A stretch of DNA of 64,000 nucleotides, taken from assembly GCF_024139115.2 (NCBI RefSeq), contig NC_085139.1, forward strand, positions 9,023,533 through 9,087,532. The letters are read 5' to 3'. This DNA is from Armigeres subalbatus. Taxonomy: Eukaryota; Arthropoda; Insecta; Diptera; Culicidae. Shown here piece by piece: positions 3 through 62,730 of the stretch. Within the stretch, counting starts at the first letter, position 1, and each line of letters starts with the position of its first letter. The notes under the pieces are model-generated. The model made no database searches, had not been told where the DNA came from, and worked only from the letters and a program-made list of their open reading frames with translations. The translations under genes and the position numbers were made by a program.

Positions 3-113
3 GCTTTTGTTACTCGATTTTTAAAATCTGTTTTGCTGGAAACAAAGAGGCGGTACTTCGACGGAAAAGATCCTAAAAATGGATTAAATTCCGGTTATAA
101 AATAATTGTGTAG
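3..113 (+). other. Possible 3' tail of a DUF4806-like terminal exon
   Basis: An open frame enters from the left window edge and stops at TAG 111-113. The peptide is basic and begins FVTRFLKSVLLETKRR. It weakly recalls the last exon of the DUF4806-like unit at 15732-16408, which has GVTEKAIRQMMGKVVRK. The stop overlaps a TAGTACTAGA element. The resemblance is slight and the start is outside the window, so this may be chance. Confidence 0.22.
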
Positions 114-120
114 TACTAGA
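112..120 (-). promoter_or_regulatory. TCTAGTACT element, copy 1
   Basis: Perfect 9-mer on the minus strand (AGTACTAGA on +). It begins at the stop of the possible left-edge exon. The next intact exon is F1 at 894. Confidence 0.5.
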
Positions 121-560
121 AGCCGCTCACAGATTCAATTGCGAATAGCGAAAAAAGCCAGTGCTGCGATAAATTAGCAAGTTTAATGAGTTGAAAGAAT
201 AGCTTTTTCTATCACTTCTATAAGCTTTTTTTTATTTAAAAGTTTCGTTGGCTTTTCTTATTAGAAGATTTTAAATATATAGTCAATTGACATGCAAATG
301 CAAATGTAACTTATTTAATGAAAAATCAGGAAAGGCAACTATCAATCGACGGACATTTGTTCTCTTTGAACAGAACATCTTTGAGAAGAACATCCGAATT
401 GCAATATGGTGATGCTTTTGATTTTAAGATAAAGAGTGTGTAATGACAATTTAGCGTAGTAGTAGAATGCATTCTTATCGAACAGTTATCGAAGTTAATG
501 TCCTATTTGCTTATGTTTTCATATTGGTTATTAATATTTTTTTCATTTATATTTTTTTAG

Positions 561-700
561 CGAGCGTATATCGATGGAGCCATCAGTGTGGTCGAGCCGA
601 TTACCTATTACCGATCTAGGGGAAACATAATCATTTTCTTGCTCCTGATCGTCCAAATCCTTCAAAGAAATCCTATTGTGGAAAGAAGCCCATGCCTTAG
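561..700 (+). pseudogene. Probable FLYWCH exon relic
   Basis: A T-rich acceptor ends at 560. The following DNA reads EPITYYRSRGNIIIF, like the opening strand of a FLYWCH finger. After a frame change, SYCGKKPM recalls the YW-C segment. The frame is not the one shared by intact units, and no second Cys or H-x-H follows. It looks like a decayed copy. Confidence 0.33.
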
Positions 701-893
701 ATGTGTCAATATTTTAGTTTAGCAATGGCTGTGGAAATATATTCAGAAGGGATGTGATATTGTTATGATAGAATAAATATATGCATTTAATTTCTGACTC
801 CAAACGAATATAACAATTCAATGTTATCAGTTCAAGCATGATTATTAAATTGTTTCTCATAAAAATAGAATCATCTTTACTTCTATTTTTTAG

Positions 894-1205
894 TGAAATA
901 CACCAAAAATCGTCGAGGCAATCGCCAAATCTCCCATCTCGGATACCTTTTCGAAATAGAGAAAAAGCATAGCTGCTCCGTCAGTTGGCGGTGCTGCCAA
1001 GCAAAAAGGCTCAAGTGAGTGTCAATTAGGTTCTTGAGATAAATTAGCTTATATTATAAAAACAAATTTCTCTTTTTTTTTCAGATGCAAAGCTCGAATA
1101 ATCGAACGATTCTCCAAACCGGGTAGACCTACACATGACATTATGTGGCCGGTGCATAATCATGTAATAATAAATACCCAACCGGAAGTTAAAAGGAAAC
1201 AATAA
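894..1205 (+). CDS. mod(mdg4): F1: FLYWCH alternative terminal unit, two exons
   Basis: Exons 894-1014 and 1085-1205 flank a 70-bp GT-AG intron. The first acceptor (TTTTTTAG) leaves two nucleotides before codon AAA, the phase shared across the window. The 79-residue product is a FLYWCH finger: the opening strand contains NRRGN, then SWRC (Cys33), CKAR (Cys41) and VHNH (His64, His66) as the zinc ligands. The intron is phase 2, one base before the second Cys codon, as in F4, F11, F12, F22 and F26. The tail is short and basic. Stop TAA lies inside AATAAA at 1201-1206, so it probably has a minimal 3' UTR. Family knowledge: FLYWCH tails give BTB isoforms their partner or DNA specificity. Membership of mod(mdg4) is inferred from the array. 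Confidence 0.85.
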
Positions 1206-1960
1206 ATTATTATGTGTCATATTTTGTGGATATGTGATAAAATTGAAAGGAAGCTAATTTTTTTTAAACATAATCTTTATTTGAGTGACTTTTTCACGAA
1301 AAGAAGTTCACCACTTAAAGGAAGCTAAAAGGATTACCCGAAAAGCGGACAAACTTATCTTTTTGCTGCTTGGATTTTATTGTATTTGAATTTCTGTTTG
1401 AAAAGTAGAAAAACGAAAGATTCATTTTGAACAAACGTACGATATTTTCTTGAGAAGTGACTATTTCATTAGAGACTTGTTGGCGGGAGACGTTATCCTG
1501 TATAGTAGACAAAAATGCGCGTTGTGAACTGTCCATGCGAAATTACCATATTAATTTTAATTTTAGTTTTTGACGATTTAATTTACTATATTCGTGATTT
1601 TTGGATGTGGAAATATCGTATTAAGTCCGGAAACAACAGACAACAACGAGTGATTATGTGGATACTAACAAAGGACATTTCATTTTTATGTTTACAGATG
1701 ATTAAAATATTATTTATTAAATAACCTTCATTAAATAGAAGTATGAAAAGCTTCAAAAGTGTCAACTAAGTGCAAAGGAAAGCTGTTACGCTATTTTAAC
1801 GGGATCTCGCTGGCACGAGTGTCCTAGGAAAGGTTGAACTAGAAAGACTGAAAGCATCGGAAGGCCCAAATGTATCGAAAGGCTGAAATCGGCGGATGGA
1901 ATAAATCACAAACCGTTCGATGGGGTACAAGTTGAGTGGTGAGTAAAGAATAATAAAAAA
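1206..1960. other. AT-rich spacer without recognised gene
   Basis: Short open frames occur on both strands but none has a domain, a suitable acceptor or plausible composition. It leads into the heptamer satellite. Confidence 0.5.
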
Positions 1961-2753
1961 AGAAGACTGAAAACTGTAGATTAAAGACTGGAGGCTGAAG
2001 TCTGAAGATTGAAGACTTAAGGCTGAAGGCTGGAGACTGAACACTTTCGGCTGGAGGCTGAAGATTGAAGATTGTAGGCTGAAGACTGTTGGCTGAAGAC
2101 GGGAGACTGAAGACTGTTGGCTGAAGACGGGAGACTGAAGCCTGAGCACTAAGACTAAGGACTGACTACTGCAGACTCAAGACTGAAGACTGAAGGCTGA
2201 AAACTAAAGACTAAAGACTGGATATTGAAGACTGAAGACGGAATACTAAAGATTGAAGGCTGGAGACTGAAGGCTGAAGACTGAATAATGAATACTGAAG
2301 GATGATGAATGAAGACTGAAGTCTGAAGACTGAAGACTTAAGACTAAAAGCTGGAGACTGAAGACTTAGATTGAAGACTGAAGGCTGAATGCTGAAGTCT
2401 GGTGGCTGAAGACGGGAGACTGAAGCCTGAATGACTGAACACTGATGACTGAAGACTGAAGGCTGAAAATTTAAGAAGATTGAAGGCTGAAGACTGAAGA
2501 CCAAAAGCTGGAGACTGAATACTTATGGCTGGAAGCTGAAGACTGAAGATTGAAAACCTAAGGCTGAAGATTGAAGATAGGAGGCTGAAGACTGGTGGCT
2601 GAAGACGGGAGTCTGAAGTTTGAACATTAAAGACTAAAGGCTAAATACTGGAGACTCTAGACTGAAAACTGAAGACTGGATATTGAAGACTGAAGGCTGA
2701 AGACTGAAAATTGAAAACTGAAGACTAAAGATTGCAGGCTGAAGGCTGGAGAC
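1961..2753. repeat. Degenerate CTGAAGA heptamer array, left part
   Basis: About 0.8 kb of imperfect 7-bp units (CTGAAGA, CTGAAGG, CTGGAGA). Because 7 is not a multiple of 3, the same short peptides recur in every frame, so the minus-strand open frames rich in LQSSVFS are not genes. The array is split by a hAT copy and resumes at 4692. Confidence 0.9.
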
Positions 2754-3224
2754 TAGGGTGGTCGGTATTGGCCATTTTTAACAAATACCGGTATTCGGTA
2801 TTTGGTGGAGTCAATACCGGTAATACCGGTAGAATACCGTTTTTTTCCAAATCCTTACCCCGTCCATCCTGAATTAAGTAAAATATAACCTTGAGTCACC
2901 ACGAGTATCATGGTCTATGTCCCTCCTCTACTAACTGTTAATGATAAGGGAACATCCATAAAGTACGTCACGCAAAAATTGGCGATTTTCGACCCCCCTC
3001 CCCCCTTTGTCACACTTTTTGTATTAAACCTCTAAAATTTTTGTATGAGTCGTCACGCTGTTCGGAACCCCCCCTCCCCCCTAGGAGCGTGACGTGACGA
3101 TGATACAAATTATAAAGATATCATACTTAAGAATTGCGGCTCCGCAACGTGTCACACACGACTGAGCCCACCAAATAAATGAAATGGTTAAAAAAAAAAA
3201 AGAATACCGGTTTTTGTAAAAATG

Positions 3225-3566
3225 TCAGGTATTAAAAGAAAAACTTTTGATTTGGACTTTTGATGTAAAACAACATTTGTTGACAAACTTCAAATGTAAA
3301 AAACATTGCTTGTTGAGCTTGGAAAAGCAAAACTTAAGTAGACATAACATACTGAGCGACTCATCTCCCAATCCGCATTGGGTTTTGTTGGCAATGTTGC
3401 CAACTACTGAAAAATCCCTCTCTGGTTCAACCGAAGTTGGACGAATGGTTCCAAGACCGTCGAAAATCAGTGTCAAATACTTATTAATCCCTCCAGATTC
3501 ATAGTAGGAGAATTCCTTACGGATTGCATGCAAGGATCCTGGCGTCAACGTATTTGCCACCAGCAA
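3225..3566 (-). pseudogene. hAT transposase C-terminal fragment
   Basis: A 113-codon minus-strand frame inside the hAT copy. Residues about 40-80 carry the conserved hAT C-terminal block with SVEPERDFSVVG, followed by LGDESLSMLCLLKF. It lacks the catalytic N-terminal part in frame; a second fragment lies at 3898-4380 in a broken reading frame. This is a remnant of transposase. Confidence 0.8.
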
Positions 3567-3897
3567 CGCAAGTGTTTTGCTACAGTCTCTTCACGAGTTG
3601 TTCTTTAATCGATGAACCAGAAAAAATATCCACAGAGGCATCTTCTTCGTACCGATTATCAGGTATGGTCGTTGTCTCAGTTTCAACGATTGCTTCACAA
3701 ATTACGACGCTTCAAAATCTCGTCCGCTTGCTTAATCAAAATAGCTCTAGATGTCTTGAAGAAAATGACAAAATCGTTTCTGATCAATTGCTTCACGGCA
3801 GAACTATTCAAAAAAGCAAAAAGATCGGCGTATTCTGATCAGCTCTCTTGGATTTATTCCTTCAAAGCATAGAATAAGTGGCGGAAATTCCTTTGGT

Positions 3898-4380
3898 TTA
3901 ATTTGATAATTGTTCCAATGTAGATTGGAGCTCCACGTCGGCTTCATATAGAGTGCAGAACTCACAGCAGAGTAGTTCCACATCAGCTTGACCAGGTTCG
4001 AGGGCTTGAATTATTTCACCAACCGTCAAACAATCACTGAGGTAGAATTTGGAATAAAGCTGCAACTCATCGATCCGTTTGAGCATAGATAACAAGCTAT
4101 TCCAGCGTGCCTTGGCATCAGCCACAAATTTAAATTCTTTTCCGAATTCAGAACGGACATATTTTTGCAAAAAATTGTTTTTCACAGATGATCCACGAAA
4201 AAGAACTACTACGACACGTGCCTCATTCACAATTTCATATATTGCGGGAAAACTTTGGAAGATGTCAACAATGTTGAGAAAAAAGTCATTCGCAGTTTGA
4301 CAGATGGCTAAGAGAATGAAGCAACACGTATGATTAATGACGAAGATGATCGATTTTTGTTGTATCGTGAACGTCGTCAA
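3898..4380 (-). pseudogene. hAT transposase central fragment
   Basis: A 160-codon minus-strand frame upstream, in transposase order, of the C-terminal fragment. It includes KFVADAKARWNSLLSMLKR and LLEALEPG-like text (IIQALEPGQADVELL), typical of hAT transposases between the RNase H-like core segments. No intact DDE set can be assembled from it. Inactive. Confidence 0.7.
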
Positions 4381-4691
4381 TGATGCTTACTTGGACAAAG
4401 TTACTCATGCGCGCATTTAATTGTTTTTTTGCACGATGCTTTACTGCTGGTAATCAAATATTTGTCATATTTATGCTGGATTTCCTATTTATATGGGACA
4501 GATATGCAATTACATGCGGTTTAGCTGATATATTTGGGTGAAAACTATTCGAGATTTATCATACTGACAGCGAAATTCAGAATACCGAAAATACCGGTAT
4601 TTTCCGTCTCTAATACCGGTATTTTCGGTACCCAAAATTGGCCGGTAATACCGGTATTACCGGTTTCGGTACTACCGGTTAGACCACCCTA

Positions 4692-5084
4692 CTGGAGACT
4701 GAATACTGAAGATTGACTGAATATTGAAGACTGAATACTGAAGATTATAGACTGAAGACTGAAGGATGAAGACTGAAAATTGAAGACTGAAGGCTAAAAG
4801 CTGAAGCCTGACGAATGAAGACAGTAGTTTGAACATTTAAGACTTAAGACTAAAAGCTGGTGACGGGCGGAATGACTGAAGGCTGAACATTGATGTCTGA
4901 AGACTGGGCTGAAGGCTGATAATTGAAGACTGAAGGGTAAAACTGAAGACTCAAGACTGAAGGCTGAAGACTGGAATGAAGACTGAAAAGCTGAAGATTA
5001 AAGACTGATAACTGAAGACTGGGATGAAGGCTGATGATTAAAGGCTGAAGACTGGACGCTGAAGACTGAAGGTTGAAGACTGCA
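4692..5084. repeat. Degenerate CTGAAGA heptamer array, right part
   Basis: Continuation of the array interrupted by the hAT insertion. Unit type and degeneracy match the left part. It ends where an inverted-repeat element begins. Confidence 0.88.
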
Positions 5085-6545
5085 GGGGTGCCAATGAAAA
5101 TGACATTTTCGAATTAAAAAACGACATTGCTCACAAGTTTCATTACCCAAAAATATGACCCCATGCAAAATTTGAGCTAAATCAGACATGATTTAGGGGT
5201 GCCTAAAATTCATCAAAGTTTTGAAATTTTTACCCATGAACATTTTTCCAAGGGGGGAACAAAGGAAAAGTCGAAAATCGAATTTTTGTTTTTGATGTCA
5301 AATTACTTAAAATGCATGAAACGTCGAGATCTGATGTTATTCCAAAAACATTTTTTTTTAAAACAATTGATTTTTTCTCTTAGAACATTTTTGGTACTTT
5401 TTTCGTAGAATTTTAACACCGGACGATACGCAAACGTTTTCGTAGCCAAAAGTATTCCCCTTTGCAAAATTCGAGTTAAATCGGACATGATTTAGTGGTG
5501 CTTAAAAATAAATCAAATTTTTTCGGTTGTTTTATACCTCAAAATGCATGAAACTTTGAGAATTTATTTTAAAAAAAATCTACTGTTTTGGAACTACGAA
5601 AAATTTTCATCGAATTTAAATATCGGACGTTACGCAAACATTTCCTAAGCCCTAAAATATGCCTCTATGCAAAATTTGAGCTCCATCGGACATGATTTAG
5701 GAGTGCTCAAAATCTTGCTATCAAAATTTTGAATTTTTGTGTAACTTGATTTTTACACATTGTGTTTTAATTCATGTGGTACCGCGTAATAAAAACCGCA
5801 ATCTGATAATTTTCTCCGTAAATCTGATCTCAAAAGTTTTCAAAGTAAAAAAAAAAAATCAAAATTTTGAGCACCCCTAAATTATGTCCGATGGAGCTTG
5901 CATAGGGGCATATTTTAAGAATATGCACCGACGATTTTCAGCAGAAAACAAACCCGTTTGATTTTACTATGCGCAAAAATCAACTGTGGCCCTTGCGGAA
6001 TGTTGTCACTTGAACTGAAACCATGGTATAATTTAACAAAATTCCATGGTTGTTTTAAAAACAGAGTGTAGTCTACGAAATAGTAGTTTCTACCACGGTA
6101 TTTTTTTTGGGTGTATTGTTCGTTTTTTGAATTCGATGAAAAATTGTTTTCGCCATAAGATTTTTTTTCCGAAGTCCCAAAACAGTTTTATTTTTTTTTC
6201 AAATTAATTCTTAAAGTTTCATGCATTTTGAGTCCTTCGGCATAAAAAAAACAGAAAAAATCCCCCTTGTGAGAAAAAAAAAAGTTAATTTTGAGCAACC
6301 CTAAATCATGTCCGATTTAGCTCAAATTTTGCATAGGGGGATATTTTTGGCTACGAAAACGTTTGCGTATCGTCCGGCGTTAAAATTCGACGAAAAAATG
6401 TTCATCATCTGAAAAAAAAATCCCAAAAATGCTCTAAGAGAAAATATCGATTTTTCTTTAATTTTTTTTTTTTGAATAACATCAGATCTCGACGTTTCAT
6501 GCATTTTTAAGTCATTTGGCACCGATCGGCGTGAAAATTTGTATT
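5085..6545. repeat. Large palindromic (foldback) repeat
   Basis: The two halves are inverted, diverged copies. CATGATTTAGGGGTGC-type blocks near 5187, 5487 and 5691 recur as reverse complements near 5868 and 6291. ATGCATGAAACGTCGAGATC at 5311 recurs reversed near 6490. No coding capacity. Boundaries are approximate. A short relative occurs at about 29925-30130. Confidence 0.75.
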
Positions 6546-6860
6546 TAGAAGTTTTTGGGGCCGGGGAAGGTTCTTAAGATGGTTCAAGATCCCTCCCCCG
6601 TTTGGAAAAGGGGGCTCCCATACAAATGAAACACCAATTTCGTCATAACTCGAGAATTAATCAAGCAAATGGAACCAAATGTGAAAAATGTGAAGGTTTT
6701 GGAAGAGAAGATATGGTTTTGTGGTGGTTCGAGACTTCTCCCCCTTCTGGAAAGGGGGGCTCTCATACAAATGAAACAGAAATTTCTTCATAACTCGAGA
6801 GCTAATCGTCACATAATAAATAATTTTTAGGCGAAACGAAGTTTGTCAGGTCTGCTAGTA
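6546..6860 (+). repeat. Dispersed mosquito-type repeat with internal duplication
   Basis: Two direct copies of a block containing CATACAAATGAAACA and CATAACTCGAGA lie at about 6600 and 6760. The stretch ends GTCAGGTCTGCTAGTA. A CTAGT end would suit a Helitron terminus, but I see no convincing hairpin, so the class is open. Confidence 0.45.
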
Positions 6861-7447
6861 AAGAATGAAAATTTCACATCAACATGGTAATAAGAAGTCG
6901 CAAGAAGTGTTCGTATAATCCTTTTTGTTCGGCCTACTAACATTAAATAAGACTTTTTGCGCTAAAATCTGTTTCTTACGGTTTTTCAGTCCGGTGATAG
7001 TTTTTTACTTTTTTGACCTTGTCAAAACAAGAACCCGAAAGTTATAAGAAAACTATTGTGCGGAAGATCATCATGCAAGGTTAGTGAAATGGGTGGCCTA
7101 TGAGCGAGATAAATGTTCTTTCTTGAATTAACACGTCAGAACGCTACGATGTCCAGAAGTCAAGAGAGCGACTAGTTCGTTTTGTCAGGTCTATCGCCGA
7201 TGGTTGTCTGTTAATTCCGATTGGTATGTGTGTATTCGACCCATCATTCAATAAAACAACTTCGCTATTTGTTATCATGTCGGCCAAAATGGTCCCTTTC
7301 CTGTCATTAGACGTGTGGCCCCATAATTCATGATGTGCGTTCCTCTCCTACTAGAACCCTTCGTTCTGTCAAGTATCTTTGTGGCATCATCTTCAAAAGC
7401 GCCTACCGTTATAGAGGGACCCTTTCGATATGTTGTATTTGTTTGTT
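6861..7447. other. Spacer, no recognised feature
   Basis: No domain-bearing frame, acceptor-plus-FLYWCH signature or obvious repeat was recognised on either strand. Confidence 0.4.
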
Positions 7448-7689
7448 TCTTTTTTTTTTTTTATTATTTAACTATTTTTATTTGCTAATTTTCTAATACA
7501 TGCATTTATCTCTTAGACTAGGTGTTCCGTGTTTTCTTAACACTATCATCCTTATTTGCTATGTTACGCTTTTATTTATTATTAATATATTTCAATTGCC
7601 TCTGGCAGTTAGGATATTTCCTCTGGTTGAATTAAACCGTGTAGGAATTACAATGTTTTCTACTTAAACTAAACTTAACCTAATTTATA

Positions 7690-9033
7690 CTAAGGGTACA
7701 AGGAGCTAATCGTTGCAATAGAAGATTGCAACGATTTTTGTCTAAAATTGGAAATTATTTTGTTGGACATTTGTTGCAATGCCTCAATATTAGAAATTCT
7801 ATGAAGTTCATTGGTACTATACCACGGAGGCAACTTCAGAATCATTTTCAAAATTTTGTTTTGAATCCTCTGAAGTGCCTTCTTTCTAGTATTGCAGCAA
7901 CTAGTCCATATTGGCACAGCATACAACATGGCTGGTCTAAAAAATTGTTTGTCAATCAAAAGTTTGTTCTTAAGACAAAGTTTTGATTTTCTGTTTATAA
8001 GTGGATATAGACACTTAATATATTTGTTACATTTGGCTTGAAGGCCTTCAATGTGATTTTTAAAAGTTAATTTCTGGTCCAGCAGAAGTCCTAAATATTT
8101 GGCTTCGCTAGACCAATTAATTGGAACCCCATTCATAGTGACAATATGTCTGCTAGAAGGTTTCAAATAAGAAGCTCTCGGCTTATGTGGGAAAATTATA
8201 AGCTGAGTTTTGGAAGCATTCGGGGAAATTTTCCATTTTTGCAAGTAAGTGGAGAAAATATCCAAACTTTTTTGCAATCTACTACAAATGACACGAAGGC
8301 TTCGCCCTTTGGCTGAGAGACCTGTGTCATCTGCAAACAAAGATTTTTGACACCCTGGTGGTAAATCAGGTAAGTCAGAAGTAAAAATGTTATACAATAT
8401 GGGCCCCAGTATGCTGCCTTGGGGGACACCAACCCTTACAGGTAATCTATCAGATTTAGAATTCTGATAGTTTACCTGCAGTGAGCGATCTGATAAATAA
8501 TTTTGGATCATTTTAATGATGTACAGAGGAAAATTAAAATTCATCAATTTTACAATCAAACCTTCATGCCAAACACTGTCAAATGCTTTCTCTATATCAA
8601 GAAGAGCAACTCCAGTCGAATATCCTTCAGATTTGTTGAGCCGAATTAAGTTCGTAACTCTTAATAACTGATGAGTGGTTGAATGCCCATGGCGAAAACC
8701 AAATTGCTCATCAGCAAAAATAGAATTGTCATTAATATGAACCATCATTCTATTTAAAATAATCTTTTCAAACAGTTTGCTTATTGAAGAAGGCAAACTG
8801 ATTAGATAACTAGAAGCCTCAGCTGGATTTTTGTCCGGCTTCAAAATTGGAACAACTTTGGCGTTTTTCCATTTATCTGGAAAGTATGCCAATTGAAAAC
8901 ATTTGTTAAATAAATTAACCAAAAAGGATAAAGAGCTCTCAGGAAGTTTTTTGATAAGTATGTAGAAGATACCATCATCACCCGGGGCTTTCATATTTTT
9001 AAATTTTCTAGTAATAGATCTCACTTCATCCAA
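7690..9033 (-). pseudogene. Non-LTR ORF2, reverse transcriptase part
   Basis: A 447-codon frame carrying reverse transcriptase blocks in order: KAPGDDGI at residues 15-22, LDIEKAFDSVWHEGL at 145-159, GVPQGSILGP at 202-211 and the catalytic FADD at 233-236. A thumb and C-terminal domain follow. Upstream coding (9053-9394) is in another frame, so ORF2 is broken near 9050-9110. In Jockey-type elements this enzyme copies the element RNA at a nicked target. This copy lacks an intact endonuclease. Confidence 0.9.
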
Positions 9034-9052
9034 ATTAGTTCCCGACGAATGG

Positions 9053-9719: not shown

Positions 9720-9825
9720 TTCCCTCCTGGACTATGAAGTCCGTGTAGAACTTAATGATAACGCTATTTATTCGCTGCGTGGCCTCTTGTTGAGCCGCTG
9801 CCTTTTCTTTCAAGATTAACTATTT

Positions 9826-10056
9826 CTCGGGTACTTATTCAAAAGGACGTATGTGATTTTGTAAACAAAGATTCAAACGTCGATTAGTCCGATCTGATGG
9901 CACTCCCACGCAAACCAACACTACCAACAGGTAGCCGAAGCCTCCCCCTATCTGTCTATGGTGATGGTTTGCGTGGGAGGGCTATCAGATCAGACTAATC
10001 GACGTTTGAATCTTTGTTTACAAAATCAAATACGTCCTTTTGAATAAGTACCCGAG
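9826..10056. mobile_element. Palindromic MITE nested in the Juan-like element
   Basis: Inverted arms of about 90 bp begin CTCGGGTACTTATTC at the left and end GAATAAGTACCCGAG at the right, with a short loop near 9920-9965. An ATTT at each side may be the target duplication. No coding capacity. It interrupts the 3' part of ORF1. Confidence 0.85.
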
Positions 10057-52171: not shown

Positions 52172-53690
52172 AAGACAATAGAAAGGACCGCTTCACGAAA
52201 TGTTTTCTCCTTGCTAGGGCGGGAATCAAACTCACACTCCATTGAACTTTTTTACGCTCCCTTCAACCATTTTCAATGTACTCAATAGATTTTTTTATGC
52301 TGAATTCAGATACATATTCAGATTTTCTGTTAGACGTCCAGTTTTTGAGATGAAAGGATTTGAATTCACAAAAGTACGTATTTTCATAGAAATTTGGTTT
52401 CTCTCCTCTGCAAAGCTGAATTTCTGCTCCTCACTTTGAGAATGAACTTTGAAATAAGTAGAATGGGCCTTGTAGAATGCATGTGGATTGTTGAATTTAA
52501 TTTGGCACGTACATTTGTTGTGAAAAACGGAATTTAATTCCCAAAAGTATTACGGAGAAAAAGAAAAATTTGGATAGCTTCGCGGAAATAACGCGCAGAG
52601 GGAAATCCCCGCATAGAACAAATCACACATAGTGTGCGTTGAATGGATATAACAACAAATCTGCTGCCGTGAAGTTCAATGATTTGACGTACACAGATAT
52701 GAAAAGATTAAATAATAATCAGTACCTGGCGGAGGAGTCAACTAACCCGAAACTTTTCTTTTGAGGTGCCGATGTACGCGTCGGTTTTAACGTGTGGTAT
52801 ACTAGAAATACTACAATAAGAGATCGGCGATGTTTCCAATCGAACCGTCAAAAGCGGTTCCAATTCGACTTGTTTACATTTTGCATCCATAAGAAGCAAG
52901 CAAAAAGTTCAAGTGCTGCCAGTCTTATTTTTACGATATCATGCATTTTCATACGTTGCCATTTCGACAGTTTTTCACTCCGCCGGTCTCTGGTTATAGG
53001 GTTGCTATGGTATACCTCAGTTCGTATCGGTTAGTTTTATAGGCGGCTCATTGAGCTGGGCCTACAACCTATCGCCGAGTTGGGTCTCACCCAACACCAA
53101 GACTTGGGCTAGCGTACTTTAAGCGGTACACGGTCTCTTTAGTAGAAACTACTTGTGGATACAATGTAGGTTTTTAATTAATTGAACCGTGCTCATTTTC
53201 AAATGCAATCCCATCCTAAACAATCCCCACAACTTGCAGTGACCAGAGGACGGTTTGTCAGGCACTTGAACATAGTTCCCGCTGTCCCGAAAACTCCCAA
53301 ACATTAAATATAACTGAATTTCCCTTTTCTATTCTGCAAGGCATCGTTTTTTCTCCAGTAAAATATTTTTATTTTAAATTTGTTCATTTAGGCGTAGAAT
53401 GTTTTAGGATGAAATGTCATAAGTATAAACATAAACAAAACATTGCAAATTTCACAATAGGTGCCTTTGATCATTTTCCAGGAAAATATTCATTGGAGGC
53501 GCTTTGAATTATACTGTATTCCAAATTTTTCTTGCAATGCGTAATACGTATTTTCATAGAAGTTTGCTTTCTCTGCTCTGCAAAGCTGAATTTTAGCTTC
53601 TCATTTTGGAAATAAAGTTTGAATATCCTAGAATAGTAAACGTTTTTTTTGTGTCTTTATTAAGGAGCCTTTCAGCCCGAGTTTGGCTCA
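52172..53690. other. Spacer of repeat fragments
   Basis: About 52310-52560 is a diverged copy of an arm of the following palindrome (GCAAAGCTGAATTTC, TTGAATTTAATTTGGCACG). The rest, including 52690-53330, shows no gene. Confidence 0.45.
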
Positions 53691-53694
53691 TCTC

Positions 53695-54295
53695 CGAATA
53701 GTAAACGTCTTTTTCGGCCAAATTATCAGTTCGGCCGTATGATCTCGTCGCTTTCAGCAAAATGACATTTTTGACCAAACCGTTTTCGACCTTATGTCAC
53801 CTTGTCCGGCCAAGCAGCATTTCAGCTCTGCAAAGCTGAATTTCAGCTTCTCACTTTGAAAATAAAGTTTGAATATCGTAGAGTAGGCCTTGCAGAATGC
53901 ATATGGTTTGTTGAATTTAATTTGTCACGTACATTTGTTGCGATAAACGGAATTTAATTCACAAGGATACGTATTTTCATAGAAATTTGTTTTCTCTCCA
54001 CTGCAAAGCTTATTTCCGGCTCCTTGTAAATTAAATTCCGTTTTTCACACCAAACGTACGTGCCAAATTCAATCCAACAAACCATATGCATTCTGCAAGG
54101 CCTACTCTACGATATTCAAACTTTATTTTCAAAGTGAGAAGCTGAAATTCAGCTTTGCAGAGCTGAAATGCTGCTTGGCCGGACAAGGTGACATAAGGTC
54201 GAAAACGGTTTGGTCAAAAATGTAATTTAGCTGAAAGCGACGAGATCATACGGCCGAACTGATATTTTGGCCGAAAAAGACGTTTACTCCGATAG
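53695..54295. repeat. Foldback with arms of about 260 bp
   Basis: Left arm 53695-53970, right arm 54030-54295, reverse complements with few changes. Paired blocks include CTGCAAAGCTGAATTTCAGC and its reverse, GGCCGTATGATCTCGTCGCT and its reverse, and CAAGGTGACATAAGG. GGCCGAAT-type words extend to 54620. Likely able to extrude a hairpin. Confidence 0.85.
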
Positions 54296-54959
54296 CTCAT
54301 TTGTTCAAAAATGGCGTTTGGCCGAACGGGTCGACGTGTTTCGCCATATAATCCGATCAGCCGAATAACATTTTCGACCAAATTGCCCTTCCTGCTAAAC
54401 TACCGTTTCGGTCAAATGGAATTTTTGACGACAAGGCCTATTCGACCAAATGACCTGTTAGAGCATATGACTTTTTCAGCCAAATGATTAGTTTGGTCGT
54501 ACCGTCAAACCGCTTTTCACATAATAACCCTATTGAACAAATAGAATTCGGCTAGATAGCTTTCGGCTTGACGTATTATTCGGCCAAGTGGTATTCGGTC
54601 AAATGGGCGTCCACCATCCACCACCAAATCCACCGAATGATTTTCAACCAAACGACCCTTCGTATTTTGCCAGTGGAGATATATCAGCTTCCACACTGAT
54701 ATTCTTCCCTCCCCCTTCATACGGGAGCTTGGCAGAAGGAAGGTCGTGTGATATGTGCCATCACAAATATTGCCCTCCGCTCGCTTTCAAATCGACTTCT
54801 ATAAAAACATTCTTCATGCCTGCCGTATCCTAACAATTCTATACAACAAATGGCTCGATTATCCGGAGGGTTCGATTATCCGGAATGAATTTTTTTTCAA
54901 CACTCCGGATAATCGAGTACGGCCTGTATTTCCAAAAGGTGTATTTCTGATGGAACTGG

Positions 54960-55250
54960 AACTCGAACACATCTCACTTCTCAGAGCTCACATATCACTT
55001 CTCAGAGCTCACATCTCACTTATCAGAACTCACATCTATCTTATCAGAGCTCACATCTCACTTATCAAAGCTCACATCTCAATTCTCAGAACTCACATCT
55101 CACTTCTAAGAGCTCACATCTCATTTCTCATTTTTCACTTCGCACTTCTGACCTCAGACTTTACTCTCTCTCTCTCCTTTTGAGAATCATCTCATTCCTC
55201 ACTTCTCACTTCACACTTTGCAATTTCCTCTATTCATTTTTTATATCTCC
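54960..55250. repeat. 21-bp AGCTCACATCTCACTTCTCAG minisatellite
   Basis: About nine imperfect 21-bp units at 54965-55130, then loose TTCTCACTT words. It leads directly into duplicated module copy B. Confidence 0.8.
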
Positions 55251-55340
55251 CTTTTCACTGCTTGCAATTTGAGGAAAAAAATCTATTTAGTCAAACGGCA
55301 TTCAGGAAAATGGTCTGCCACTAATTATCAATCGAACCAA

Positions 55341-55349
55341 TCTAGTACT
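55341..55349 (+). promoter_or_regulatory. TCTAGTACT element, copy 16
   Basis: Perfect 9-mer continuing ACTATGTTGTTGCATTGCAC, inside duplicated copy B. Confidence 0.5.
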
Positions 55350-56396
55350 ACTATGTTGTTGCATTGCACACAAAATGCATTTTTAATATAACAGTTTTTT
55401 CTTAATTGTGAACATTGAGTTGAGCATGAGCATGAGCATTATGACCGCACAATTCGTAGTTGCTACTCCGTGATTGACTAGAACTTGCGAAATTGTACAG
55501 AGAACACAATAAATGGGGCTTGAGACTAGCAACCCATTCTCAATGTACACGTTTCGGGAGCTCAAATATCTTAAGTCAATAACGGCGCCGGCCACGTCCT
55601 TACGGTCATATAGGAAGGGAAGGATTGTTAGTCCGACTCTCGTTGCTACTAGAGACCGAGTATACCTCTGCATCTCCACGATTGTCTTGGGATGGATATC
55701 GTTTTAGTTACAAAGGATAATTTTTTTTTTCAAAAAACTCATATTTTTATGCCTCCAACTATCTTAAGAATTGATAACAAACAATTTGAAAAGATGCGTA
55801 ATCCAATGCTGGGCTGTAAATGTTAAAGTAACTGGTGTCAGATGGTGAACATTGACGCTAGAACCCAAGAAAAGATTCGTGTTCTATAAAAAATCACCAC
55901 ATTGCAAAGTGTAAAATGTGGTACAACATAGAAAGAAAACAAATGTGTTGGGATATTTCTGATACATTATTCTTTAATTTGCAGATCGAACGTTAAGAGG
56001 TCATCCACAGTCCATACTGACTATCAACATTAGAGATCGCTTTTCAGTCTGATGGCCGTTGTATAGTGAACATGCACAGACTGTTCAGTCTGTATGTATG
56101 GTACTCTTTCATTCTGTATCCAATAATTGATGGCCGTTGTATAGTGGACATGCTCAGACTGTATTGGCATCCAGAAGCTACACACTTGATCAATGAATTC
56201 AATTTGCAACAAAAGCAGCTCAACGCAATCAATCTGCATGGTGAAGATTCTCACCGAAGCATGCAACAAGCATCCCTAAATTGCATGGAAAGGGGAATTA
56301 AATGCGATTGATTTAAATCTAAATATGAGTTTCATTTCATTAGTTATCATAGTCGATTCTCATTTTTAACAACCTGTATTTTTTTTAATTCGGCAG

Positions 56397-56668
56397 ACTC
56401 GTCCGATCTAGTACTACCGGGAATCTATGCGGGCGTTTGGTACAAGGCGAATCTGGAGTTCGTCGAAAATCGCCGTGGCAGCTTCAGTTTGAAGTACCAG
56501 GGATATATGTTTACCCTCGAACGCCGGCATAATAATACGGTAAATTGGGTCTGCAACAAGAGTGGCAATCCATCGTTACGCTGCCCGGCTCGGTGCGTTA
56601 CCCAGGGCCCCCAAATGATTAAATTCAGCAAAAGAAAACATAATCATGATATATTTTATGATGTTTAA
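56397..56668 (+). CDS. mod(mdg4): F21: FLYWCH unit, module copy 3
   Basis: Acceptor TTTAATTCGGCAG then AC and TCG. An 89-residue product like F17 and F18, with KANLEF, KYQGYMF and GNPSLRC as the changes. Cys52, Cys62, His81 and His83 are intact, and the frame is open. Its partner exon downstream is a pseudogene, so of the duplicated pair only this half has been kept. Confidence 0.86.
56407..56415 (+). promoter_or_regulatory. TCTAGTACT element, copy 17 (in coding)
   Basis: Exonic copy in F21, equivalent to those in F17 and F18. Confidence 0.3.
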
Positions 56669-56771
56669 GAAAATATATAAAGTATCAATAACTTTTTTTT
56701 CATTGGATGCTGCATCATAATGTAGAACGGTTTTGTTAAATGCGTTCTAATTTCTTTCTTTCTATTTTTAG

Positions 56772-57035
56772 GACATTTCTATAGAATGTCATGAATTCTC
56801 GTATGACGAACAATAAGAACTGATCCACAATCGTAGGAAGGATGGGCAATCTGCGATATCGTAAGAAGACGCAGTATGCGAACACGTTGAACTGGGTTTG
56901 CGCAAATCCCAACTATAATCGGTTCGTCGGCTATCGAGGCAAACAAACGTGTAGAGCCCGGTGCGCTACTAACAATGAGGGTGGCATAAGGCTGAGCAAG
57001 AAGGGCCATAATCATCCTCCATTGTTCGAATTCCA
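56772..57035 (+). pseudogene. Broken copy of F19
   Basis: Acceptor TTTCTATTTTTAG is kept. In the array phase the frame meets TGA after eight codons, then TAG. A block around the first strand (RYQGYTY in F19) is deleted, and a second deletion shortens the Cys-Cys loop (GKQTCRAR). The 3' half still reads NWVCANPNYNRF and GHNHPPLFEF before diverging at about 57035. Multiple independent lesions make sequencing error unlikely. Confidence 0.82.
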
Positions 57036-57262
57036 AAATCCGATATTGCGTAAACCTTTCATTAGCTTATCATATGACATCATGAAGTCCTATATCTTGG
57101 GAAAATTTTCATGTGTGGGCTCATTAAAATTTTGCATAAAGGATTTTTTTCCATACATTTTATTTGCACTCTAGTGGCCAGTTAGTGCAACGGTTCTTAA
57201 AATGTCTTCATAGTCCGATTGAAACCATCTAAATGTCGTATCGATATGTCAATTGATTGTAG

Positions 57263-57462
57263 ATTCTAAAGAGCGTGAAAACTTACTAATTGATGTCAAA
57301 AAATTGCTTGCGCCTAGAATAGCATTCGTCTTCAGTCGCAACTCCTCTATTCGCTCACTTAAAAAAAAATATGACGCTGAAAATTTTACTTTCCGTACTG
57401 GTCAGAAGTTTTCCGTAAATGGTTCCAGTTATATTTCAATTGGCAAAGTTATGTTAATTTGA
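57263..57462 (+). pseudogene. Probable truncated FLYWCH exon
   Basis: AG at 57261-57262 opens 66 codons in the array phase. Near the end it reads FTFRTGQKFSVNGSSYI, close to the first two strands of F10, F13 and F27 (GQRG, NGYSY), and then stops before any W-C or H-x-H. The acceptor tract is weak. Likely a finger cut off by a premature stop. Confidence 0.42.
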
Positions 57463-57506
57463 ACTTGTTAATATCATCTCTAATTCAAATGAAATCCTAT
57501 TTGTAG

Positions 57507-57658
57507 ATCTTCGTCCGTTTCCTGAGGACACGCAATTGGCCACCTATTCAGTGACACCAACAAAATCTCCTTCGACGCTTCTCACTATGATACATACGTG
57601 TTTTATTTCAAAGTTGAATAAACTCATGGGACGGCTCCCAATTCCAAGCGATTCGTAA
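57507..57658 (+). pseudogene. Probable decayed FLYWCH exon beside F22
   Basis: CTATTTGTAG opens 49 codons in phase. SVTPTKSPSTLL aligns with VISTKGSPQLC of F22, which begins 93 bp after this stop, suggesting a neighbouring relic of the same subfamily. No zinc ligands. Confidence 0.35.
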
Positions 57659-57750
57659 TGATAATAGCTGAAGTTATTATCATAATTGAATGTCGTAACG
57701 AAATCTTATCAACGAAAAGGAAACTAATGCAAACCTTTTTTTTTTCACAG

Positions 57751-58195
57751 CACCAATACCCGAGGCACAGTTCGTCATAAGCACCAAGGGATCACCGCAG
57801 CTGTGCATCGATGGATTCACATTTACTCGGCACATCGTGAAGGAAGACACCATCTATTGGCGGTGCACGCAATTTCGAGCCTTACGGTATGTAGTTTAAC
57901 TCAACCTGAACAGCAAACACTCTAAAGAACACGTTGTTTCCTGTATAGCTGTCCGGCGCGCCACCGTCAGCGACGAACTACCGGAGTGTTGGAAGTTGTT
58001 TGGGCAAAGCACAACCATGGCATAATGAAGCGCAGAAAACGTGGCATACTGCGTGACATTCTACTCCAGCGTAAACAGGAAAATCAGCAAGCGGTGTTTT
58101 CCGATGTGAAATATGGATCCGGGAGTAATGTTCCGGAGGAAGATTTTCCTGCCGATTACCTAGAACTCGAAGATTTTAATGTTGAATCAAAATAA
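57751..58195 (+). CDS. mod(mdg4): F22: FLYWCH unit, two exons, acidic tail
   Basis: Exons 57751-57886 and 57949-58195, intron 62 bp, acceptor TTTTTTTTTCACAG. The 126-residue product has FVISTKGSPQLCIDGFTF at 7-24, IYWRC (Cys38), RCPAR (Cys46) and KHNH (His66, His68). The phase-2 intron precedes the second Cys. The tail has a basic half (MKRRKRGILRDILLQRKQ) and an acidic half (EEDFPADYLELEDFNVE). TAA lies inside AATAAA at 58191-58196. Confidence 0.87.
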
Positions 58196-58677
58196 AAAAG
58201 TGCATTCGTACCATATTTATTATATCAGAAGTCTAAAATAAGTCATTTTTATTAACTTATTTTATGTACTACTACTAACATACATGCCAGATTTATGTTT
58301 AATCATTTCCAAATGACAAATATTGCATTTCTTATTTGAGATTTTTTTTCTAAAATTTTGTAATTAATTATTAGCTACTTCTGTTTGTCATTCTGTTTCA
58401 GTGGTATGTGTATAAATAACTTTCAAATGTTCTAATGCTAGAAATGATTTTCAAACTTTTCTCACTTTACGCTGATTTCATCAGAATTAAAGGTTCATTT
58501 CACCTCCCATAGTAGGTGATCAATCAGTATCATCCTTATTTAACATAATATTTGATTATATTTTCATTAACTTAGGTAAGTTAAGATTTTTTCACAGGTT
58601 CTATTAAACCTGCATGAATTACAGTATTTTTAATTTAAACTAAATACAATGTGATAAATTACCTTTCATTTTTTCAG
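58196..58677. other. Spacer, right part duplicated with F23
   Basis: 58490-58677 matches 59600-59762 and was duplicated together with F23/F24. Nothing else seen. Confidence 0.5.
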
Positions 58678-59100
58678 ATACCTTGACATACGACAGAAGA
58701 AATCCCGAACCACCGGCAAAGCAAGACGAATGTGAAACTGATGACGACAATCAACGGTACATGTTCATCGTCAGCCGCCGGGGAGGCATTCTTCTGGTGC
58801 ACGACAATCACATCTATCGGTCCAACATGCGACGTCAGGGACCTCAGAAGAATATACTCTACTGGGAATGCATCCGTAACCGGTCGGGGAAATGTCGCGG
58901 GCGACTCAAAAGCGAGGGAAACTGTCTCTACGTTTCCAATACATATGGTACGAATGGAATGATGAATTGTAGTACCAGATCAACTGAATTGCTGTTTATT
59001 TTCAGTGTCTCATAATCATCGTGAAGACGTGGATCGAATCAAGTGTGCTGAAGACGGTGGAACGATCACATATCGCACGTTTTTCTCAATATTTAAATAA
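58678..59100 (+). CDS. mod(mdg4): F23: FLYWCH unit with late intron
   Basis: Exons 58678-58947 and 59006-59100, intron only 58 bp and phase 1. Acceptor TTCATTTTTTCAG. The 120-residue product has FIVSRRGGILLVHDNHIY at 29-46, LYWEC (Cys64), KCRGR (Cys72), and after the intron SHNH (His92, His94). Reading through the intron loses the His pair, so splicing decides whether the finger is complete. The tail ends TYRTFFSIFK. Tandem duplicate of F24. Confidence 0.85.
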
Positions 59101-59118
59101 CTCCTGAAAAATTGTAAT

Positions 59119-59127
59119 CTGGTACTA
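59119..59127 (+). promoter_or_regulatory. TCTGGTACT variant
   Basis: One change from the element, continuing ACGTTATC. It lies 18 bp after the F23 stop and is duplicated at 60212 after F24. Another one-change copy, TAGTACCAGA at 58970, lies in the F23 intron. Confidence 0.35.
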
Positions 59128-59762
59128 CGTTATCATCTCCTATTATTCGGTACGACTGAGACGACAGTCACTACGAGTTGATAGAAAGTTATTATGTAGC
59201 CTTTCAGCCCAAGGCTGGGGAAGCAATAATGTTTCCTCAAAACAAGTCGATGTCGTGTTCCATCAACTATTAAGTTATCGTGTAGTTTGCATTATTTTGA
59301 ATAATTCATCTACTATTAGCGGAGAGAAATATCAAATAGACATGTGCGTCTAAATTAATAATCTCTCTACTGCCGGAAGTGCTTTAATTTGATTGGTAGT
59401 GTTCAAAACAATATTTCTTAAATTTTGGCTCCAATAAAACAGTTTAAAACTTCTGTTTGTCAAACTTTTTTTTGTGAGGTGTGAAACAATAAGTTTAAAA
59501 TGATTTGAATCAAAATACCAACAACATATTTTTCTCGGTACATTCATGAATTTATGATTTAAGTAAAGGTTGCTCATCCACGGTTTTTAATATTTTTTTT
59601 TCATTTCATCTCTCATGCTGGGTGTTCCATCACAATCACTCTCCTCACGTACCATACTATTTTATTATATTTGCATTATCTTGGGTAGTAATGACTTTTT
59701 AACAGGTCTAACTTTACCTGCGGGAAGTATAATATTTTTCAGTTTAAATTAAATTTTTTTAG

Positions 59763-60188
59763 ATCCTTTTAAATACGACGTCAAAGCGTACAAACCACCT
59801 GCAGAGCACGATGGATATAAAACTGATGACGACAATCAACGGTACATGTTCATCCTCAGTCGCAGGGGAGGCTTTCTACTGGTGCACGACTATCACATCT
59901 ATCGGTCTAACATGAATCGTCAGGGACCTCAGAAGAACATACTCTACTGGGAATGCATCCGTAACCGCACGGGGAAATGTAACCGTAGACTCAAAAGCGA
60001 GGGAAACAGTCTCTATGTTCGCAATACTACATATGGTATGAGTGAAATGTTGCTTTGTAGTAATAGATCAACTGAATTGCAATTTATTTTCAGTGCCCCA
60101 AAATCATCGTGAAGACGTGGATCGAATCAAGTGTGCTGTAGAAGATGGAGCGTTTACATATCGCACGTTTTTCTCGATTTTTAAATAA
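59763..60188 (+). CDS. mod(mdg4): F24: FLYWCH unit with late intron, His ligand lost
   Basis: Exons 59763-60035 and 60094-60188, intron 58 bp. Acceptor AATTTTTTTTAG. The 121-residue product parallels F23: FILSRRGGFLLVHDYHIY, LYWEC (Cys64), KCNRR (Cys72). The His pair reads VPQNH, so the first His is Gln93 and only His95 remains. The frame and splice sites are intact, which suggests either relaxed constraint after duplication or an altered fold. Confidence 0.8.
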
Positions 60189-60211
60189 CTCTGAATTTAT
60201 AAAAAATGTAA

Positions 60212-60220
60212 TCTGGTACT
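60212..60220 (+). promoter_or_regulatory. TCTGGTACT variant, duplicate
   Basis: Twin of the 59119 variant, 23 bp after the F24 stop. Confidence 0.35.
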
Positions 60221-60503
60221 ACGTTTTCATCTACCATGATTCAGAACGACTGCTTAATTAGCTTTATCAGTTGACAATCTTTCTACTGTTGAACATATTT
60301 CTAATTTAATTAGTATACCATTTTGTGATTATTATTTTTTTTTATAAAAAATGAACTGGAATCCCTGAGTGAAATATAATCTAATCATTGTTATGTTTTT
60401 ATACTGCGAATAAAAGTAGGATTGACTCATAGTTTCATTGACGCTAAAGGTCTTAATCGACTTAAACCCACCAGTGTAAAAAAAGAACTGAGTGTAGCCT
60501 AAA

Positions 60504-60512
60504 TCTAGTACC
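60504..60512 (+). promoter_or_regulatory. TCTAGTACC variant
   Basis: One change from the element, continuing ACATTG. It lies 108 bp before the exon-like frame at 60621. Confidence 0.4.
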
Positions 60513-60620
60513 ACATTGATTAACATACATATTGTTTTATAGTCTAATCAGACATAAAACTATATTTCTTGATAAACAGAATCTTGTCTAAGATATGTCG
60601 TTTCATATCAAGGCTGTTAG

Positions 60621-60817
60621 ATCCTTTGAATACTGCGTTTTTGAATCAGTTTTGCACAACATGTAAAAGATTTAATTCGAAAAATGTATTGAAGGTAACC
60701 ACTTGCCTTCCGTGGGGTGTAACCCACGACCCTCAGTACATTTCAGAAGCTAAATTTAGAAATGTGTTGTATGGTGAGCTTATGGTGTTTTTCTCTACAA
60801 CTCTGTCTAATAAATAA
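60621..60817 (+). other. Exon-like frame in array phase without FLYWCH
   Basis: Acceptor AAGGCTGTTAG (weak tract) opens 65 codons to TAA. It begins PLNTAFLNQF, nearly the start of F6 (SLNTAFLNQL), with matching DNA over about 25 bp. The remainder shows no finger. It may be a decayed F6 relative whose core was replaced. Confidence 0.35.
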
Positions 60818-61115
60818 TATCAAGTGCTGCGCTTAATTGTTCCATGTTACCTTTGATGAAAACTTGTCAAACTCGAGTAAATTTGTCCCACTGAAAAAAT
60901 TAACTTATCATTATTATATGAAACATATAATATTGTCATATCCATTCGATTCACAATCAAGTGGAACAAATTGACGCTAGTTTTGTTTAGTGCGTTCAAA
61001 TAACGAACTTAGGCAGAGTTGTCAAAAAAGCTAAAGCACTACAACGCATTTCGAAAAATGACCGCGTCTGATATTCTTCTTACGCCAACATATTTCCAAA
61101 TTGTCTTCCCTACAG

Positions 61116-61375
61116 ATTCGTCACTGGATTTCTCCGAGCGCGCCGTCTACAAGTACACATCTCGAGGAACGCAGCGCTTGTTGTGCGACGGCTTCTACTA
61201 CAGTAAAAACAAATCCTACGAATCCAGGGGCCGGGTGAACTGGAAGTGTCAACTCTACCGACATCTGCGCTGCAAAGCCAGAGCAGTTACCAAGTACATC
61301 AATGGGTATGACTACGTTCAGGTCACCAACAATGAGCACAACCATGGCAGTGATGTTATGAGGGACAAAGTGTAG
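61116..61375 (+). CDS. mod(mdg4): F25: FLYWCH alternative terminal unit
   Basis: Acceptor TGTCTTCCCTACAG then AT and TCG. The 85-residue product has YKYTSRGTQRLLCDGFYY at 11-28, NWKC (Cys44), RCKAR (Cys52) and EHNH (His74, His76). It shares ARAVT and the VxVTN strand with F7 and F9, nearly 40 kb away. The tail is ten residues. GC-rich against AT-rich flanks. Confidence 0.88.
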
Positions 61376-61931
61376 AGAAGATTCAAATTAAGGGTAAATT
61401 GTCTGTTTATGTAATTTAACTAGATTTAATTGGACGTCTCAAATTTGCATTAGAAAAGTTGGAAAACCGTCGCTATACAAATGATTTGATTAGTTGTGTT
61501 ACATGCCAGCAAAATAAAATTATTGAAAAAAAGCAATTCGTGGCACTGAACCAATAAAACAATCTGTGAAGAAAACACATTTTTTTAATACGATTATATT
61601 TTTAGGATACGAATCCGATTCATTTGGCATTCGTGAGGGACCTGCAAACAAATCCATTTCACCGTAAGGTCCGAACAGTTGGTTATCAAACTGGGAACCA
61701 TCCGAAGAAACTTGAATTTTTGTATCAACCAAGCAACATCGACATCATCGACAAGGATGGATAACGAATTAGAGAGGGAGGGAATGCAATCGTTGTAGCA
61801 TTTATTTGTAGGTTTTCAATTGTTGTGAAATAATAAAATAGAAATCAATTCACAATGAAAAACCAGGTGTTATTTTCAATTTCTTCAATATTTTTTGCGT
61901 AACCAAATTAAAATTAATCGAATTTTTGCAG
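61376..61931. other. Spacer before F26
   Basis: 61606-61764 follows a good acceptor (TATATTTTTAG) but the array phase stops after 19 codons; a 51-codon frame in phase 0 has no motif. Not annotated as an exon. Confidence 0.4.
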
Positions 61932-62307
61932 TCAACAGGAAGAAAGGAACATCGCAGTTGATGATCGATTCTCACTGCTTCAGTCGGCAACGGGTTCGGC
62001 AACGCACCATTAGATGGCGATGTGTGCACTTCAAAGCACTTCGGTGAGTGTAATTCCAAAACTTTGTATTGGTTACAAGCAGGAGCTGATGCTACTGTTG
62101 TAAATTTGTTTCCACAATTGCAGATGTATGGCGAGAGCCACAACAGACCGCAAAAATAATGGGCAAATAATTGCCCTTGACAGTGAGCACAACCATGAAG
62201 TCATAAGGCAACGACGGAAGCGAGGGGAACTCCGAGAACTGCTGGCCAAACAGCAGCTTGAGCGTTTAACCGGTCGGGTCAGTGTGAAACAGGAGTGCAA
62301 TATCTGA
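61932..62307 (+). CDS. mod(mdg4): F26: FLYWCH unit, two exons
   Basis: Exons 61932-62043 and 62124-62307, intron 80 bp. Acceptor CGAATTTTTGCAG then TC and AAC, in phase. The 97-residue product begins at the Gly turn (NRKKGTSQLMIDSHCF), so the usual first strand is cut short; the same frame is open for some codons upstream. RWRC (Cys30), RCMAR (Cys38) and EHNH (His59, His61) follow. The basic tail RQRRKRGELRELLAK is shared with F4. It ends VSVKQECNI. Confidence 0.82.
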
Positions 62308-62721
62308 GCGATATCTGATATCAGGGAAACTAACTTCGAACATTTCACTTAAATTTTTAATGCCGAAAAGTTGGAGATTTTCAATGAATCTATAAAAAAA
62401 ATTGCTGGTAAAGTAATCACAACACTGAAATATTTTCCAGTTTCATATTGAATATTGGTGTATAATATCGCTGTTGTCATTAATAAGCACGTGAATACAT
62501 TTCCAACACTAATTAGACTTTTTACAGTTGGGTGTTTGACTTGTTATTCATCATCACCTCCACACTATGCAAGCCGATTTCCAAACCATTATTGAAGTAT
62601 CTACGAAAAAAGAAAGGCCAATGTAGATCATGTGTGATTTTGTTGTTAACAACACAGTTCTGGAGGATAGAATCGAAATCACCTTTATATAATGATCAAG
62701 CGCAACAGTTGGACTGCTTAT

Positions 62722-62730
62722 TCTAGTACT
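62722..62730 (+). promoter_or_regulatory. TCTAGTACT element, copy 18
   Basis: Perfect 9-mer continuing ACACTT, 40 bp before the F27 acceptor. Confidence 0.55.

Follow-up and report, generated by a model that had tools for sequence, protein, structure and literature searches.

A near-symmetric sequence motif repeated near putative acceptor exons of a mod(mdg4)-type locus in the mosquito Armigeres subalbatus

The mod(mdg4) locus of Drosophila melanogaster carries an array of end exons that are joined to a common 5' part. Its acceptors lie partly on opposite strands. According to the sections of PMC12692577 cited here, their transcription starts from independent promoters, one of them bidirectional; a shared array-wide motif is not named in those sections. 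The present work concerns a short DNA motif, TCTAGTACT, in a 64 kb stretch of the Armigeres subalbatus genome (contig NC_085139.1, positions 9,023,533 to 9,087,532, hereafter the window), which we judge, from its coding units and their common splice phase, to be an array of acceptor exons belonging to a mod(mdg4)-type locus. The motif occurs there in great excess, has a longer consensus than the 9-mer, is present in about 14 independent copies in both orientations and lies near the acceptor units.

Cis elements are known from the same kind of locus. In Drosophila mod(mdg4), trans-splicing motifs of intron 4 and the NTT terminator have been described, and the donor-intron terminator prevents read-through (PMC11727487, sections cited). 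Those elements lie in the donor intron and NTT is an RNA structure, whereas the present motif is repeated across the acceptor array in both orientations. The mod(mdg4) locus of Anopheles gambiae has the same-strand layout found here, which is assumed for Aedes aegypti as well; 35 acceptor combinations are given for the former and 34 for the latter, and trans-splicing in A. gambiae is called likely from the layout (PMC4667647, sections cited). The word promoter does not occur in the main text of that paper, and its section 8 describes no array motif. Since mosquito acceptors are all on one strand, strand cannot prove separate transcription, and the layout given in PMC4667647 would leave such transcription unproven.

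A sequence profile derived from 16 FLYWCH stretches of the window itself was used to delimit the array; it finds 28 clear FLYWCH-encoding units, all of them on the forward strand, in contrast to the mixed strands of Drosophila. The Pfam family PF04500 (FLYWCH) was matched in all ten of the 28 units that were scanned. Every unit has a phase-2 splice-acceptor candidate, which is the best-scoring AG in 27 units and the second-best in U5. With this shared phase, each end exon could follow one common donor, which in loci of this type belongs to 5' exons encoding a BTB domain and may lie elsewhere. The nearest database relatives of U9 are three proteins from Aedes albopictus and Aedes aegypti, 65-75% identical to it; relatives of U9 sought in viral and genome contig collections were not confirmed.

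Excess, consensus and independence of the copies

Exact copies of TCTAGTACT number 18 in the window, 13 on the forward strand and five on the reverse. The initial annotation had likewise counted about 18 perfect copies on two strands, against an expectation near 0.5. In 100 dinucleotide shuffles the expected number is 0.20 and the largest 2; a third-order estimate, with tandem repeats (5,515 bases) masked, gives 0.48. For TCTAGTACTNCA, nine copies stand against 0.00 expected, and words of the motif rank at the top of the over-represented 8-, 9- and 10-mers that occur at least four times in the repeat-masked window. Other over-represented words (ATCGATA, AATACCGGT, TTCGGYCAA, TTCTCACTT) are mostly bunched in few stretches. 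An Rfam scan returned no match at the gathering score.

Some copies are related by descent. Self-comparison of the window and comparison of flanks gave two duplication families, one formed by a triplicated predicted coding exon (copies at 44192, 45186 and 56407) and one with common flanks (41561, 43413 and 55341), as had been supposed earlier for three copies of the duplicated module and three in F17/F18/F21. The two families account for four copies, which leaves 14 independent origins, somewhat more than the dozen that had looked independent. For 14 origins the Poisson probability (at least 14 given 0.48) is 2.5e-16, or about 3e-11 once multiplied by 131,072 9-mer pairs. Copy pairs outside both families have flank scores of at most 22, the 99th percentile for random pairs being 23; masked core letters could match each other in this test, so that scores were inflated and the test was biased towards finding relatedness. 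Clear sharing of flanks is confined to the two families.

Copies within duplicated sequence allow a comparison. In the paralogues 43413 and 55341, whose flanks are about 83% alike, the core is retained; in 59118 and 60212, with flanks about 85% alike, all 15 positions of the weight matrix described below are unchanged. Given such high flank identity, this retention is weak evidence by itself. In the older exon pair U11/U29 (75% alike) a related sequence stands at the same place, with four of 12 positions changed in U11. A block around ATGTTGNTG ... CAAAATGC lies about 45 bp downstream of 41561, 43413 and 55341 and is retained together with the motif, the flanks having otherwise diverged; the block could belong to the same promoter as a second element.

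The full element is longer than the 9-mer and reads TCTAGTACT-D-C-R. Among 15 copies (duplicates 45186, 55341 and 56407 dropped, the related 41561 and 43413 both retained) the core is followed by D (A in 7, T in 5, G in 3), then by C in 13 and by a purine in 12; at least 13 C at position +10 would arise by chance with a probability of 2e-8. As a 12-mer the element can be written TCTAGTACTDCR. The dyad TCTAGT/ACTDCR is near-symmetric with a C/C mismatch, and the motif therefore has polarity. A 15-column weight matrix gives 27 matches of at least 13 bits, as against 3, 0, 1, 1, 3 and 0 in six simulated windows; it was built from 15 exact copies, and high scores of the 18 exact copies are inherent in its construction. 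The nine non-exact matches start at 458, 7885, 13313, 16452, 58971, 59118, 60059, 60212 and 60504. Three were left out of the variant count, namely 7885, in a frame that by eye resembles reverse transcriptase, and 58971 and 60059, which lie inside U25 and U26 and differ from each other; six (458, 13313, 16452, 59118, 60212 and 60504) were counted as variants.

Two elaborations of the consensus were rejected. An initiator (Inr) fused to the motif, in the form C-R-n-T, is weakly suggested by T in ten of 15 copies, this being one of 79 columns, and Inr is not enriched nearby. Pairing of a self-complementary RNA is not kept, because the D position varies between A, G and T. The core-promoter element of Drosophila called Motif 6 bears a faint likeness around RGTA, with about two mismatches to its consensus. 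Among the matches listed by literature searches, those for the 9-mer were unrelated by title, none for AGTACTAG with Drosophila was about this locus by title, and those for mod(mdg4) and for promoter motifs (open-access literature) named no such motif at this locus in titles or abstract openings. The matches listed for CTAGTACT do not contain the word, and that query has no bearing on the motif.

Position of the copies relative to the units

Outside coding exons, 11 of 15 exact copies are found no more than 600 bp from a unit (P 0.005); with unit ends refined, 17 of 5000 random sets reached this result. When the two extra family members are dropped, 11 of 13 independent non-coding copies do so (2 of 5000 random sets), and with the six variants added the figure is 17 of 21 (0 of 5000). 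The zone from 1200 bp upstream of an acceptor to 600 bp downstream of a stop, 54% of the window, holds 13 of the 14 independent copies, including one that lies in an exon (P 0.002). Unit ends were approximate in the earlier distance tests (13900 for U4, 59099 for U25) and were refined to 13986 and 59100, the retest using 13984 for U4. Acceptor positions are predictions from a simple home-made score; U6, U9 and U28 have alternatives, and positions differ by up to 54 bp between tests.

Of 24 upstream regions (U19, U22, U23 and U26 left out as duplicates), 11 contain the word AGTACTAG, the expectation being 0.5. A single exact copy is present in each of the three longest spacers (10.9, 8.1 and 9.9 kb), at 0.95, 0.97 and 0.89 of the distance towards the downstream acceptor, from which it is separated by 539, 255 and 1056 bp. 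Among the seven spacers no longer than 254 bp, three have an exact copy, the expected number being about 0.01. One of these is the U2-U3 spacer, at whose start an AATAAA overlaps the U2 stop.

Distances reported earlier agree with our measurements for the copies checked: 22230 and 41334 follow stops by 16 and 27 bp; 12483, 46075 and 62722 precede acceptors by 45, 71 and 48 bp; and 22230, 23242 and 37493 precede them by 238, 251 and 255 bp. The copies at 13313 and 16452, placed in the same series, carry one mismatch and are not perfect. The three copies of the duplicated module, which had been assigned to spacers, fall inside predicted exons, 10 bp after the acceptor. The corresponding stretch is not seen in two homologues: the residues of P0005 differ at this place, and P0004 starts with an M only where the stretch has its last residue. 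The three in-exon copies may therefore be coding coincidences.

Possible roles of the motif

A near-symmetric motif that tolerates either orientation and stands at variable distances is suggestive of an element recognized as double-stranded DNA. We tentatively propose that the motif is a protein-binding site, tolerant of orientation, in or beside the promoters of the acceptors, and that it drives or opens them. One sequence-specific DNA-binding protein would bind TCTAGTACT-D-C-R, probably contacting two similar half-sites (TCTAGT / YGHAGT). The promoters in question, supposed by analogy with Drosophila, would transcribe individual acceptor pre-mRNAs, which would then be trans-spliced to a common 5' transcript, and binding of the protein would activate these small promoters or hold them open. 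A promoter-proximal site is favoured because of the DNA-level anatomy and because the acceptors of Drosophila mod(mdg4) have independent promoters. The initial annotation had offered an internal promoter, a boundary site or a trans-splicing signal; a DNA-level element tied to the units fits best, given both orientations, varying distances, independent flanks and the exact copies in short spacers, and an RNA signal for trans-splicing fits worst.

Several observations weigh against a promoter-proximal role. When 15 exact and six variant copies are considered, a non-coding copy stands between the preceding stop and the acceptor in 16 of the 28 units and is lacking in 12 (U6, U7, U12, U15, U16, U17, U19, U20, U23, U24, U25 and U28); exon-internal copies precede U19, U20 and U23, and those may be coincidental. 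Eight of the 14 exact non-coding copies flanked by units are nearer to the next acceptor and six to the preceding stop. Core-promoter elements show no enrichment at distances of up to 100 bp from 15 copies: the numbers of sites with an element, against expectation, are 3 and 2.5 for TATAWA, 6 and 5.9 for TCAKTY, 4 and 3.7 for TCAGT, 0 and 0.2 for the downstream promoter element (DPE), 0 and 0.6 for the DNA replication-related element (DRE), and 0 and 0.7 for GAGAG. The motif may accordingly act away from the start, or starts may lie elsewhere. At copies only 45-48 bp from an acceptor, transcription starting downstream of the motif would give an outron shorter than about 40 nt.

An unlikely, though appreciable, alternative is a boundary or architectural site outside promoters, whose bound protein would separate neighbouring units, limiting read-through and promoter cross-talk, or tether them near the common 5' transcript. 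It would agree with copies at the joints between units in both orientations, with two exact and two variant copies 16-27 bp after stops, and with the insulation that compact spacers may need; the 12 units lacking a non-coding upstream copy and the absence of the DRE word around the 15 copies speak against it. From sequence alone, a boundary site and a promoter-proximal site are inseparable. It is also improbable, and slightly more so than the locus-dedicated scheme considered below, that the motif is a general regulatory element of the species, used in many promoters or enhancers genome-wide and frequent here since the array packs many promoters into 64 kb, although nothing in the motif itself is array-specific. 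Placement after stops recurs in the idea of a 3'-end or termination element of the preceding unit: 22230, 41334, 59118 and 60212 (the last two paralogues) follow stops by 16, 27, 18 and 24 bp, and six of the 14 exact copies are nearer to the preceding stop. We hold this hardly probable, as 7.9-10.3 kb separate the copy from the preceding stop in each of the three longest spacers, against at most 1.1 kb to the next acceptor, and AATAAA or ATTAAA stands at no fixed distance from the motif.

An element of the acceptor pre-mRNA (outron) that promotes trans-splicing, through a protein or by pairing, seems quite unlikely to us. In its favour, all three exact copies that precede an acceptor by 45-71 bp are on the sense strand, and the spacing between the acceptor and the motif, or its changed version, is the same in U11 and U29. 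However, five of the 15 non-coding exact copies are antisense, only three lie within 100 bp of an acceptor and 12 are more than 200 bp from the next one; the varying D means that self-pairing is not conserved, and the common C occupies the place where a branch A would be needed. A splicing branch site consists of an adenosine in a CTnA context on the sense strand, roughly 18-40 nt before the acceptor. The motif was rejected as such a site on account of its C (13 of 15), its antisense copies and the 45 bp that separate even the nearest copy from an acceptor. That the copies are transposon remnants or by-products of duplication is highly improbable. Two duplication families do exist, and the copy at 11537..11548 could, judged by eye, lie in the leader of an element resembling a long interspersed nuclear element (LINE); but after collapsing the families the 14 copies have no shared flanks, and because about 14 independent copies stand in unrelated flanks no transposon accounts for them. 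The transposon alternative raised in the initial annotation accordingly finds no support in the window-wide comparison.

A further conceivable role is that of a code dedicated to the locus. A single DNA-binding protein, which might be one of the isoforms encoded by the locus, would read the 12-mer array-wide and decide which acceptor transcripts are made, or gather them for trans-splicing to the common 5' part; isoform choice would then depend on site occupancy and not on splice-site competition. We regard this as rather doubtful. A 12-mer shared near many acceptors predicts positions of start sites, offers a bait for the binding protein and suggests base changes that would be expected to silence single isoforms.

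Copies of the motif and neighbouring features

Table 1. Predicted acceptor array and copies of the motif, in window coordinates; core denotes TCTAGTACT, and bits are weight-matrix scores
Feature	Positions	Strand	Context
Array of 28 FLYWCH-encoding acceptor units (U1-U29, weak U10 dropped)	894..62984	+	Profile search, phase-2 acceptor candidates
Exact TCTAGTACTACA	109..120	-	782 bp upstream of U1 acceptor
Variant TCTACTACT then ACG	458..466	-	436 bp upstream of U1 acceptor; 15.9 bits
Exact TCTAGTACTACA	11537..11548	-	539 bp upstream of U2 acceptor; downstream end of 10.9 kb spacer
Exact TCTAGTACTTCG	12483..12494	+	121-bp U2-U3 spacer; 45 bp before U3 acceptor; 80 bp after AATAAA start
Variant GCTAGTACT then GCA	13313..13321	-	316 bp before U4 acceptor; 16.3 bits
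Exact core then GCG	15239..15247	-	U4-U5 spacer; sole independent copy (of 14) outside the -1200/+600 zone
Variant ACTAGTACT then GCA	16452..16460	-	312 bp before U5 acceptor; 15.6 bits
Exact TCTAGTACTACG	22230..22241	+	254-bp spacer; 16 bp after U7 stop, 238 bp before U8 acceptor
Exact TCTAGTACTGCA	23242..23253	+	251 or 284 bp before U9 acceptor (23493 or 23526)
Exact TCTAGTACTGCA	24299..24310	+	U9-U11 spacer; just upstream of inverted repeats 24458-24599 / 26026-26166
Exact TCTAGTACTTCA	27984..27995	-	U12-U13 spacer
Exact core then TTT, without C	37493..37501	-	255 bp before U14 acceptor; downstream end of 8.1 kb spacer
Exact TCTAGTACTTCA	41334..41345	+	27 bp after U17 stop
Exact TCTAGTACTACA	41561..41572	+	Flank common with 43413 and 55341
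Exact core then ATT	43413..43421	+	769 bp before U18 acceptor; paralogue of 55341
Exact core in predicted U18 coding exon (SSDLVLP)	44192..44200	+	Starts 10 bp after acceptor
Exact core in predicted U19 coding exon	45186..45194	+	Duplicate of 44192
Exact TCTAGTACTTCA	46075..46086	+	173-bp U20-U21 spacer; 71 bp before U21 acceptor
Exact core then ACT	55341..55349	+	1056 bp before U22 acceptor; towards downstream end of 9.9 kb spacer; paralogue of 43413
Exact core in predicted U22 coding exon	56407..56415	+	Duplicate of 44192
Variant TCTGGTACT then ACG	59118..59126	+	18 bp after U25 stop (59100); 15.0 bits; unchanged in paralogue 60212
Variant TCTGGTACT then ACG	60212..60220	+	24 bp after U26 stop (60188); 15.0 bits; paralogue of 59118
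Variant TCTAGTACC then ACA	60504..60512	+	612 bp before U27 acceptor; 15.8 bits
Exact TCTAGTACTACA	62722..62733	+	48 bp before U29 acceptor; related, changed sequence at same distance in paralogous exon U11

The duplicated FLYWCH module spans 44064-45904 and 56194-57033, with copies 84-97% alike; its copy U23 looks degenerate, the profile match starting only at position 18. The inverted copies 24458-24599 and 26026-26166, which lie between the motif at 24299 and U11, belong to a repeat of 90-136 bp, up to 93% alike, and resemble the ends of a foldback element. A long diverged tandem array at 17956-20922, whose frames read as repeats like IQIQSKSNPNP, contains no exact copy of the motif. The LINE-like element, recognized by eye at 7690-10913 on the reverse strand, has a reverse-transcriptase frame and a zinc-knuckle frame, and the motif copy at 11537..11548 could lie in its 5' leader.

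Other repeated words are local. Seven TATCGATA palindromes form two clusters, at 51066-51141 and 52036-52130, probably within a repeat. TTCGGYCAA is clustered on both strands at 28584-33655 and 53713-54602 and is probably repeat-derived, and AATACCGGT is clustered at 2784-4658, where several of its copies form palindromic pairs.

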